Source: Streptomyces sp. NBC_00083 (lineage in GTDB: Bacteria > Actinomycetota > Actinomycetes > Streptomycetales > Streptomycetaceae). Taken from it: a DNA stretch of 64,000 nucleotides. The DNA lies in assembly GCF_026343295.1 (NCBI RefSeq), contig NZ_JAPELY010000005.1, forward strand, positions 186,001 to 250,000, in the 5' to 3' direction. A model generated the notes under the pieces. It saw only the letters and a program-made list of their open reading frames with translations, was not told the origin of the DNA and made no database searches. The first letter of the stretch is position 1, and the number at the start of each line of letters is the position of its first letter. Below, one piece after another: positions 18,808-25,738 of this stretch. Both the position numbers and the translations under genes were made by a program.

Positions 18808-19980
18808 TCAGAGGACCGTGCTGCCGAGCGGGCGCCCCTCCGTCGCCCCCGGCAGCACGTAGAAGAGCGCCGAACCGTACTGCTCCGCATAGGCGTTGAG
18901 CGCGTCCCCGGCGGCGAGCCGCTGCCGCACCCGCACGAAGAGCGCCGGATCCCTCAGGTACGCCAGGAGGAACAGCCCCCGGTCGGCGGCGCTGTTCTCG
19001 TAGGAGTAGGCGCGCCGCAGCATCCGCGCACCCCCGTCGAGCCGGTGATCCGCGAGACGTACGTGAGCGTCGGCGGGCAGCACGTAACCGCCGTCCGGGG
19101 TACGGACGTTCACGTCGGCCGGGTCGTGCTCGCGGCCTCCGCCGAGCGGCTCGCCGCCCCGTTTGCGGCGCCCGATGATCTGCTCCTGCCGGGCCACGGG
19201 CAGCCGCCCGAACTCCGCCACGCGCAGCCGCACCCGTCGCACGACCAGGAACGTCCCGTCGGCGTAGGGCCCCGGGCCCGCCAGCCAGACCCAGCGTTCG
19301 CTCTCCGCCGCCGTGGGATTCGCCGAGCCGTGCCGGAAGCCGAGGAGGTCGCGCGGGGTCTCCCCGTCCCGCGGGGGCGCGAACGCGCCGCCGCCGGAAC
19401 CGCCGCCGGAACCGGCACCCGGGCCGGCCCCCTCCGGCGGCAGGAACGCGCCCTGGCGCCAGCGGGGCCGCAGCACACCGGCCCCCGCGGCCGCGAGCAG
19501 ACCGGCCAGCCGCTCACAGCCCTGGGGATCGCGCGCACAGATCTGTACGCCGATCTCGCCGCCGCCCAGGCCCGCGTCCAGGTGCTCCCCCGCGAGCGCG
19601 GGCAGGTCGAGGAGGGCCTCGGGCGCTCCGATGCCGATGCGCCCCGGCAGGGCGGGTCCGATGCCGACGGTCGCGGTGGGCCCCGGAGCCGCCCCCGCGA
19701 GCAGCTCGCTCCACCGCGCGAGCAGCCGGCGCACCGCGTCCCGGCCCGGCGCCCCCCGGGTGCCCGGGGTGAGGTCGTAGGAGACGAAGAGCAGATGCCG
19801 CTGCGGAGGCTCGACCACCCCGGCCTGCCGCACCGGTCCCGGCGGGGGCCCCTGGACGGGCCGCTCCGCGCGCGGGCGGCGCGGCACGGCGGCGTCGCAG
19901 CCGCTCACCGCGAAGGCCACGGGGAGGGTGGCGAGAAGGGTGCGGCGCCGGAACCCGGAGTCACTCAAGTGGTCGTACAA
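18808..19980 (-). CDS. DyP-type peroxidase, predicted Tat-exported lipoprotein
   Basis: About 390 aa. The N-terminus has GFRRRTLLATLPVAFAVSGCD: a twin-arginine motif, a hydrophobic stretch and a lipobox, so it is predicted to be exported folded and lipid-anchored. The remainder is EfeB/DyP-like (QEQIIGRRKRGGEPLGG, DAHVRLAD with the proximal heme His, RRAYSYE). The family GxxDG motif reads GFRHG (near residue 213), so the distal Asp is replaced by His. Start is uncertain: TTG 19980 or 19968, neither with a ribosome binding site; upstream codons are low-complexity. No efeU/efeO genes are adjacent. Confidence 0.8.
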   Translation of the reverse strand: MYDHLSDSGFRRRTLLATLPVAFAVSGCDAAVPRRPRAERPVQGPPPGPVRQAGVVEPPQRHLLFVSYDLTPGTRGAPGRDAVRRLLARWSELLAGAAPGPTATVGIGPALPGRIGIGAPEALLDLPALAGEHLDAGLGGGEIGVQICARDPQGCERLAGLLAAAGAGVLRPRWRQGAFLPPEGAGPGAGSGGGSGGGAFAPPRDGETPRDLLGFRHGSANPTAAESERWVWLAGPGPYADGTFLVVRRVRLRVAEFGRLPVARQEQIIGRRKRGGEPLGGGREHDPADVNVRTPDGGYVLPADAHVRLADHRLDGGARMLRRAYSYENSAADRGLFLLAYLRDPALFVRVRQRLAAGDALNAYAEQYGSALFYVLPGATEGRPLGSTVL

Positions 19981-20085
19981 AACAGTACATTTCAGGAGAG
20001 AGGTGCTCGGCACGATACACCCGCGGGGCCTCGCGCCCCCGTCTCCGCGGCTGCGCGCCGCCCGATCCGGAGGCGCCCGGCACCC

Positions 20086-20160
20086 CCGCCCCGCCCACCC
20101 CGCCCCGCCCACCCCGTCCGGCCCATCCCGTCCGGCCCATCCGTCCCATCGGGATATGGG
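20086..20160. repeat. Short GC-rich tandem repeats in divergent intergenic region
   Basis: The 345 bp between the DyP gene and the sigma-CAP gene contain two copies of CCCCGCCCACC and two of CCGTCCGGCCCAT in tandem, then CCCAT CGGGAT ATGGG, a small inverted repeat. Nothing else was recognised here. No convincing promoter hexamers were found for either gene. Confidence 0.5.
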
Positions 20161-20325
20161 CTTCGTCACCGTGCCACGTGTTACCTCCCCTCCGGCTGGC
20201 ACCATGCAGCATCTGACGGAGGGCGGCCGATATCTGTCATCCGTTTTCTGTTATCCGACCACTTGTCGAGTGTCTCCACTGTGTCGGGTCAGTTAGGTTC
20301 GGTGCTCCGGGAGAGTGGACGAGGC

Positions 20326-22017
20326 GTGATCAGTGAACAGGAAGCCGCGGTGGTCGTCGCGGCCAGAAGCGGGGACCAGCGGGCACGGGACGAGCTGGTC
20401 GCCGGGTATCTGCCGCTCGTCTACAACATCGTCGGCAGGGCGCTGAACGGGCACGCCGACGTGGACGACGTGGTGCAGGAGAGCCTGCTGCGGATGCTCG
20501 ACGGGCTCGGCTCGTTGCGCGACCCCGCGGCGTTCCGCTCGTGGCTGGTCGCCGTCACCATGAACGAGGTGCGCCGCTACTGGCAGGGCCACCGCCGCGC
20601 CCCCGTCGACGGGGGGCTCCAGGACGCCTACGACATCGCCGACCCCGGCGCGGACTTCGTCGACCTCACCATCGTGCGGCTCGGTCTCTCCGGACAGCGC
20701 AAGGAGGTCACCGAGGCCACCCGCTGGCTGGAGACCGACGACCGGGCGCTGCTGTCGCTGTGGTGGCTGGAGGCGGCCGGTGTACTCACCCGGGGCGAGG
20801 TCGCCTCCGCGCTCGACCTGTCGGCCGAGCACGCCGCCGTGCGCGTCCAGCGCATGAAGGGCCAGCTGGAGACCGCCCGGGTCGTGGTGCGTGCCCTCGC
20901 CACCAGCCAGCACTGCGGCGAGCTGTCCGGTCTCACGTTCGCCTGGGACGGTGTGCCGTCCGCCCTGTGGCGCAAGCGCATAGCCCGGCACGCCCGGACG
21001 TGCGCGGTCTGCTCCGGGCACTGGAGCGGGCTCATACCCGCCGAGGGCCTGCTCGTCGGGCTCGCCCTCGTCCCGGTCGCCGCGACCACCGCGGGACTGC
21101 TCGCCGCGCTCCACGGGCACCTCCCGGGACTTCGCACCCCGGACCTCCAGACGGCCGCGCACGCCACCACGCAGCCCCTCGCGCAGGCCGGCACGCAGCC
21201 CGCGCCGGAGGCGTCCCGCGCCTCGCACGGCGCCCACGCCGCCGGCAGGCGGCGGGCCCCCGCGTCCCGGCGGGACCTGCGGGACCGGCGGGCACGGCGG
21301 CGGCGCAGGGCCGGCGCCGTCATCGCCGCCCTCGCGGTCGTGACCGCGCTCGGCGGCGCGTACCACTTCCTGACGGACTCCGGTGACGACGCGTCCCGTT
21401 CCGTCGCGGACGCCCCCGCCACCACCACCGACGCGGCGGCCGACGGCATCAGCACCAAGCCGCTTCCGCCGTCTCCTTCTGCTGCCAAGTCGCCTGCGCA
21501 GCACAGCAGTTCACCGACGCCGAGTCCCTCGAAGCACTCCGCGCCGCCCGCCAAGCCGTCGCCGCGCCCGGCACCGCCGAAGCCGGCGCCGAGCACGAGG
21601 CGCGCGGCGCCGAGCAGCACGGACACGAGCATGCCGGCGGCGGTGCAGCAGGTGCTCGACCTGGTCAACTCCGAGCGGAGCAAGGCGGGTTGCTCGGCAC
21701 TGACCAGCAATTCCAAGCTCTACGACGCGGCGCTGAAGCACTCCGAGAACATGGCCGCGCAGAACTTCTTCGACCACACCGACCCGAGCGGCGCGGGCCC
21801 CGGCGAGCGCATCACGGCCGCCGGGTACCAGTGGAGCGCGTACGGCGAGAACATCGCGCGGGGCCAGGCCGACGCGGCTTCCGTCATGGACTCCTGGATG
21901 AACAGCCCCGGTCACCGCGCCAACATCCTGAACTGCGGGTTCAAGGAGATCGGCATAGGCGTGCACTACGGGTCGGGCGGCCCGTGGTGGACGCAGGACT
22001 TCGGTACGCGGAGCTAG
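20326..22017 (+). CDS. ECF sigma factor fused to zinc anti-sigma-like motif, membrane segment and CAP/SCP domain
   Basis: A 563-aa multidomain protein. Residues ~10-85 are sigma region 2 (VVQESLLRMLDGLGSLRDP); ~115-185 resemble region 4. H222-x3-C226-x2-C229 (HARTCAVC) is the ZAS-type anti-sigma zinc motif. A hydrophobic stretch lies at ~240-262, then a very basic linker, a clear transmembrane helix at ~330-350, a ~75-residue Pro/Ser/Lys stalk, and a CAP/SCP domain from ~438 (FFDHTDP, GENIARG, SPGHRANILNC). The positive-inside rule puts the CAP domain outside the cell. GTG 20326 has GGGAG 10 nt upstream; the longer open frame upstream is not coding. Likely a membrane-tethered sigma factor sensing the envelope. 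Confidence 0.85.
   Translation: MISEQEAAVVVAARSGDQRARDELVAGYLPLVYNIVGRALNGHADVDDVVQESLLRMLDGLGSLRDPAAFRSWLVAVTMNEVRRYWQGHRRAPVDGGLQDAYDIADPGADFVDLTIVRLGLSGQRKEVTEATRWLETDDRALLSLWWLEAAGVLTRGEVASALDLSAEHAAVRVQRMKGQLETARVVVRALATSQHCGELSGLTFAWDGVPSALWRKRIARHARTCAVCSGHWSGLIPAEGLLVGLALVPVAATTAGLLAALHGHLPGLRTPDLQTAAHATTQPLAQAGTQPAPEASRASHGAHAAGRRRAPASRRDLRDRRARRRRRAGAVIAALAVVTALGGAYHFLTDSGDDASRSVADAPATTTDAAADGISTKPLPPSPSAAKSPAQHSSSPTPSPSKHSAPPAKPSPRPAPPKPAPSTRRAAPSSTDTSMPAAVQQVLDLVNSERSKAGCSALTSNSKLYDAALKHSENMAAQNFFDHTDPSGAGPGERITAAGYQWSAYGENIARGQADAASVMDSWMNSPGHRANILNCGFKEIGIGVHYGSGGPWWTQDFGTRS

Positions 22018-22093: not shown

Positions 22094-25738
<3,645 letters not shown>

Follow-up and report, generated by a model that had tools for sequence, protein, structure and literature searches.

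Can an ECF sigma factor, an anti-sigma zinc motif, a membrane anchor and a CAP/SCP domain belong to a single bacterial protein, and if so, what would such a protein control? The question is raised by an open frame of 563 codons (20326-22017, forward strand; GTG start, TAG stop) in a stretch of 64,000 nucleotides from Streptomyces sp. NBC_00083, hereafter the window. Its 563-residue product comprises, in order, an ECF sigma factor (region 2 plus region 4, the latter diverged), a ZAS motif, a basic stretch, a transmembrane (TM) helix, a Pro/Ser stalk and a CAP domain (Table 1). A preliminary description, made from the sequence, had placed sigma and CAP parts in one uninterrupted frame. The domain search that it proposed returned Pfam Sigma70_r2 and CAP in that frame, with no match to Pfam Sigma70_r4, and the proposed count of relatives with the same order came to more than 60 Streptomyces sequences. 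The two parts also share one frame in the nearest relatives (L003-L007) and in more than 60 others. Because the same order and frame recur so widely, the fusion is no artefact, and a frameshift or chance joining is ruled out. The 7.8-Mb genome carries one copy of the gene and, apart from it, one further CAP protein whose similarity is confined to the head. The gene neighbourhood is common only to the nearest species and was dropped as a functional clue; in the window the neighbours, judged by eye, resemble a Dyp-type peroxidase gene (18808-20205, reverse strand) and cobN of a cobalamin cluster (22094-25738, reverse strand), and these two are kept in the nearest species only.

Table 1. Features of the gene and its upstream region in the window (all on the forward strand)
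Feature	Positions	Strand	Basis
Predicted self-recognised ECF promoter	20249..20277	+	Conservation in relatives; exact match in window
Probable ribosome-binding site GGAG	20310..20313	+	Read from sequence; inference
Whole gene, sigma-ZAS-TM-stalk-CAP	20326..22017	+	Open frame, Pfam, NCBIfam, family alignment
Sigma region 2 (residues 24-91)	20395..20598	+	PF04542 (Sigma70_r2), E 5.7e-13
Diverged sigma region 4, helix-turn-helix (residues 137-192)	20734..20901	+	TIGR02937, PDB profile match, AlphaFold helices
ZAS anti-sigma zinc motif (C197, H222, C226, C229)	20914..21012	+	Invariance in 107 relatives
Hydrophobic stretch following ZAS, taken as non-spanning (residues 238-262)	21037..21111	+	Kyte-Doolittle 2.14
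Basic stretch (residues 307-328)	21244..21309	+	Sequence
Likely transmembrane helix, N-in (residues 329-349)	21310..21372	+	Hydropathy and positive-inside rule; inference
Pro/Ser/Ala/Lys stalk, disordered (residues 350-437)	21373..21636	+	Low pLDDT
CAP/SCP domain (residues 444-559)	21655..22002	+	PF00188 over full length, E 5.7e-24

The N-terminal part has the composition of an ECF sigma factor, with regions 2 and 4 and without regions 1 and 3. Both regions had been claimed at the outset: region 2 was recovered by Pfam as such, and region 4 proved to be present in diverged form, escaping Pfam Sigma70_r4 in the window protein. It is covered by NCBIfam sigma70-ECF (TIGR02937), which scored above its cut-off across residues 20-183, by the family profile, which aligns with solved ECF sigma factors in the PDB up to residue 184, and by helices that AlphaFold predicts at residues 137-150, 156-162 and 167-192. 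Among 67 relatives, Pfam reported an HTH_AsnC-type match in 35 and Sigma70_r4 in 1.

The HxxxCxxC motif lies at residues 222-229, as first noted, and an additional upstream ligand gives the ZAS pattern C197-x24-H222-x3-C226-x2-C229. All four residues, the putative zinc ligands, are invariant in 107/107 aligned relatives, and the region weakly matches the anti-sigma factor RslA in a profile comparison (3hug_B, E 0.23). An AlphaFold model of residues 1-275, built with 60 relatives (pLDDT 87.9, pTM 0.82), had as its nearest structures in Foldseek ECF sigma factors in anti-sigma complexes, with target TM-scores of 0.79-0.80 for SigW-RsiW and 0.74 for CnrH-CnrY, whereas ECF sigma factors bound to RNA polymerase reached only 0.31-0.42. 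The model thus supports an arrangement of sigma2 and sigma4 as in SigW bound to RsiW; the support falls short of proof, since the match is poorer for other sigma factors held by anti-sigma factors (about 0.5 for SigmaE-RseA). Taken with the invariant ligands, this predicted closed form provides good, though computational, support for self-inhibition.

How the sigma part might be released is a separate matter. One possibility is a release that involves no proteolysis, through a redox or metal switch in the ZAS domain or through a tethered sigma factor that becomes active after a conformational change. The invariance of three Cys and one His would suit a switch, redox ZAS proteins of the RsrA type are known, and SigW-RsiW has been solved in zinc and oxidised forms. 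A cytoplasmic switch, however, would need neither a conserved anchor nor exchangeable outside heads, and the fused relative that has been studied, IutY, acts through proteolysis (PMC8999054); we consider release without proteolysis rather improbable. Regulated intramembrane proteolysis would be the most likely route, given that it was shown for IutY and proposed for ECF52 (PMC8999054; PMC5826349).

A TM helix behind a very basic stretch had been proposed as the anchor. Residues 329-349 are indeed the likely anchor, with the CAP domain outside, because the 20 residues ahead of this segment carry a family median net charge of +7 and extracellular-type domains lie beyond it. They are not the most hydrophobic segment, as the Kyte-Doolittle maximum falls on residues 242-260, within a segment after the ZAS domain that contains Pro250 and is variable past PAEGLL. 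Since residues 242-260 are as hydrophobic as the anchor, we weighed a topology with two TM helices and an internal CAP domain and rejected it, though without proof; a single anchor is favoured by the basic run, the invariant CAP cysteine pair and the glycosyl-hydrolase and AbfB heads of relatives. The claimed Pro/Ser stalk follows the anchor and is disordered in the model.

The full CAP/SCP domain was confirmed by Pfam, and it is well folded in the full-length AlphaFold model (pLDDT mostly 91-98). Membership of the CAP superfamily, defined by the fold and conserved His/Glu cavity residues, follows from PF00188 together with H484, E508 and H530, none of which is replaced in any of the 65 CAP-class rows of the alignment. 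C456 and C537 are invariant across all CAP-type heads and likely form a disulfide, as expected outside the cytoplasm. The domain resembles YkwD-type CAP/SCP proteins (TIGR02909) in its conserved His/Glu/His, GENIA and SPGHRANIL motifs, but misses the TIGR02909 cut-off (108.4 vs 171 bits) and, unlike that type, sits on a sigma factor.

Far from being unique, the protein is a member of a family that is common in Streptomycetaceae and whose outside domains are of many kinds. A search with residues 1-260 (E<=1e-8) found relatives in 97/121 Streptomyces genomes, often 2-4 per genome, a few of these genomes having only a remote ECF protein. Family members were present in 46/61 genomes of Streptomycetaceae and, phylum-wide, in 10/198, of which eight are again Streptomyces and two are remote. 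A scan of 67 members for heads gave 43 CAP, 7 AbfB, about 5 right-handed beta-helix and 2 glycosyl-hydrolase-core domains, as well as about 10 copies of an unnamed "RYGL" domain. The RYGL head matched nothing in Pfam or the PDB; its branch comprises L087-L095, L121 and L233-L245, with the outside domain conserved. Head types cluster on a sigma-ZAS tree of 130 members (14 changes vs a shuffled-label mean of 59), whose long branches leave the deep order unsure.

Upstream of the gene, a -35 box TGTTATC (20249-20255) and a -10 box GTCTCC (20272-20277) are separated by a 16-nt spacer, and the start codon lies 48 nt beyond the -10 box. The core GTTAT-N18-TCTC occurs in 63/112 upstream regions of the family, compared with at most 7 in base-shuffled sequences. 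Counting close box variants, TGTTATC-N16/17-RTCTCC precedes 63 of the 66 CAP-headed genes, and it is also found ahead of RYGL-, glycosyl-hydrolase- and some beta-helix-headed genes. The distance to the start codon in relatives is mostly 65-100 nt. Across 69 promoters with the N16 spacer, hardly any variation is seen in the boxes, whereas the spacer is nearly free. Scanning 121 genomes with YGTTATC-N16/17-RTCTCC yielded 140 sites, against 1 for the control pattern read backwards, and the 24 genomes lacking the family contained none (Fisher 4.6e-15). Since many of the sites are promoters of the family genes themselves, this co-occurrence test is in part circular, and non-self sites therefore carry more weight. 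Autoregulation through a strict self-promoter has good support of a computational kind, and the freed sigma factor would recognise TGTTATC-N16/17-RTCTCC. Two homologous ECF branches in one genome may share this promoter, so that either sigma factor may serve a given site.

The motif might instead be owned by another sigma factor, the fused protein being merely one of its targets. ECF regulons can overlap, which would allow this, but the zero count in the 24 genomes without the family and the lack of the motif in those clades whose sigma part has diverged (AbfB, some beta-helix), where other upstream blocks are conserved, argue against it, as does the usual self-regulation of ECF sigma factors; we regard such ownership as very unlikely. 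The AbfB branch (L096-L101, L103, L105) and the beta-helix members L102, L104 and L106 are those that lack TGTTATC, and their conserved blocks are possibly promoters that changed along with the sigma factor.

For candidate targets, 60 non-self motif sites were fetched, 48 of which precede three families of surface proteins: secreted alginate-lyase-like proteins (24; for example L149, PF05426 E 5e-8, with a weak TAT signal), a secreted repeat protein of about 700 aa (19), and membrane-anchored CAP proteins, which are few (5; L148, L150, L158, L191, L196). For about 10-12 of the 60 sites no matching gene follows, and chance probably accounts for these. The 43 lyase-like and repeat-protein sites lie nearly all in genomes with a differently headed sigma factor: such sites are present in 23/23 RYGL genomes vs 2/98 others (Fisher 9e-23), the RYGL genomes being recognised by an exact sequence pattern in 20/23, by a one-letter variant in G033 and G067, and by sequence in G099, where the gene is cut by the contig end. 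Among the CAP targets, the CAP domains of L150 and L158 are 70-74% identical to the best heads, and these proteins look like the lone outside half of a fused sigma factor. CAP genes adjoin CAP-type-headed sigma genes at L011, L051, L066, L067 and L079-L081. On the Kitasatospora plasmid NZ_CP108290 the CAP gene and the sigma gene that follows it both have the exact motif, and on the S. anulatus plasmid NZ_CP086103 a motif variant belongs to the CAP gene that lies ahead of the sigma gene. Another target may be L206 (G101:C2:105511), where the motif and its T-rich element lie 110 nt ahead of a gene whose secreted product looks, on inspection by eye, like a papain-type protease.

In the genome that contains the window, the sole convincing site is the gene's own promoter, which counts against a wider output there. 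Relaxing the pattern and allowing as many as three mismatches gave nothing convincing. A second exact match to the relaxed motif in this genome (C3:6822-6851, L126) lies 117 nt before a Wbl-like gene; it has no T-rich element ahead of the -35 box and was set aside as a probable chance occurrence. The other CAP protein of the genome was likewise dropped, with no motif seen upstream.

These results bear on what the CAP domain does. It could be the working part, a surface effector that sets its own amount through the sigma half, which would drive expression of the gene, with cleavage both freeing the sigma factor and shedding CAP. Such a role would account for the single promoter in this genome and for the CAP proteins, anchored in the membrane, that are among the targets of some relatives, and the retention of H484, E508 and H530 is in line with it. 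Against this, heads vary freely on one chassis and some are degenerate in the CAP motifs, and in one class the targets differ from the head, as expected for sensors. We hold an effector role to be a minor possibility.

The reading that we prefer, and hold to be probably correct, is that of a one-component transmembrane regulator: an ECF sigma factor that is membrane-tethered, self-inhibited and autoregulated, and whose targets tend to correspond to its outside domain. On the cytoplasmic side, the ZAS domain would hold sigma2 and sigma4 closed, while one TM helix and the disordered stalk would display the CAP domain, of the disulfide type, outside. An event at the CAP domain, be it a ligand, a partner or the state of the cell wall, would then set the sigma part free, regulated intramembrane proteolysis being the most likely means. 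The freed sigma factor would act first on its own gene, in a positive feedback loop. The promoter is found in relatives ahead of genes for surface proteins that tend to correspond to the outside domain: CAP proteins anchored in the membrane where the genome has CAP-type heads, and alginate-lyase-like and repeat proteins where it also has the RYGL-headed form. In the window's genome the gene itself is the only clear target.

The preliminary description had proposed a one-component transmembrane regulator, and its architecture and concept hold, in agreement with a concept published for ECF48, ECF52 and ECF53. The proposal is supported in part, a ligand read by the CAP domain and release through proteolysis being conjectural. 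This architecture class is already known: these are actinobacterial ECF sigma factors with a fused ZAS anti-sigma domain, one or two TM helices and an extension of up to about 400 residues (PMC8999054), a description that the window protein matches. ECF53 is closest, with a C-terminal ZAS domain, one or two TM helices, a long outside extension and, in some members, glycosyl-hydrolase or carbohydrate-binding heads comparable to the AbfB and glycosyl-hydrolase-core relatives here (PMC8999054, PMC10766802); the fit is by description only, and the accessible text makes no mention of a CAP head. SCO4117 of Streptomyces coelicolor (ECF52; PMC5826349) also unites sigma, zinc finger, TM segment, proline-rich stalk and outside domain, and self-regulation and proteolytic release were suggested for it. 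Its outside domain is a carbohydrate-binding module and its reported motif is CSGYN-17-SRHA, both unlike the window protein, which has CAP at the C-terminus and TGTTATC-N16/17-RTCTCC upstream. IutY of Pseudomonas putida (ECF243) likewise has a sigma factor fused to a membrane anti-sigma part, with release by proteolysis shown (PMC8999054), but serves iron-siderophore surface signalling in a Gram-negative and lacks the ZAS-CAP arrangement. SigI/RsgI of Clostridium thermocellum (PMC12203970, PMC6056542) offers exchangeable outside sensor heads, self-regulation, a proteolytic cascade and a regulon of surface or secreted enzymes matching the head; there, sigma and anti-sigma are two separate proteins, the sigma is of another type and the heads bind plant polysaccharides, whereas here all is one ECF-type polypeptide. 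A search of literature that covered few subscription journals found no paper on CAP-headed sigma factors, an absence that does not prove novelty.

Although the classification of fused, membrane-anchored ECF sigma factors goes back years, in the literature searched only one of them, an ECF52 member, was studied, with its promoter unconfirmed. The present analysis adds the spread of a family with swapped heads, the SigW-RsiW-like prediction, the strict promoter and the surface-protein targets. The promoter provides an immediate, testable read-out for the family in most Streptomyces, and the correspondence of heads with target genes gives a hint as to what the individual members sense. The findings also place bacterial CAP proteins, whose function is poorly understood, in a regulatory context. 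More tentatively, and with somewhat less than even confidence, we suggest that Streptomycetaceae possess a general plug-in form of sensing, in which one autoregulated, self-inhibited sigma chassis carries an exchangeable head and shares a promoter with head-matching surface proteins, sensor and targets being the same domain in the CAP branch. If so, a cell of that branch would monitor its own surface CAP proteins, through their state or their ligand, and tune how much of them it makes.

Two further observations concern individual relatives. Frame breaks past the sigma-ZAS part were seen in L034, L069, L086, L100, L107 and L142, representing pseudogenes or assembly errors in GC-rich repeats. 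Two beta-helix-headed proteins, L109 (931 aa) and L176 (963 aa), have at their end a signal of the sortase type, made up of LAQTG or LAHTG, a hydrophobic stretch and an Arg tail, in addition to an internal membrane helix; apparently these sigma factors are tied to membrane and cell wall alike.
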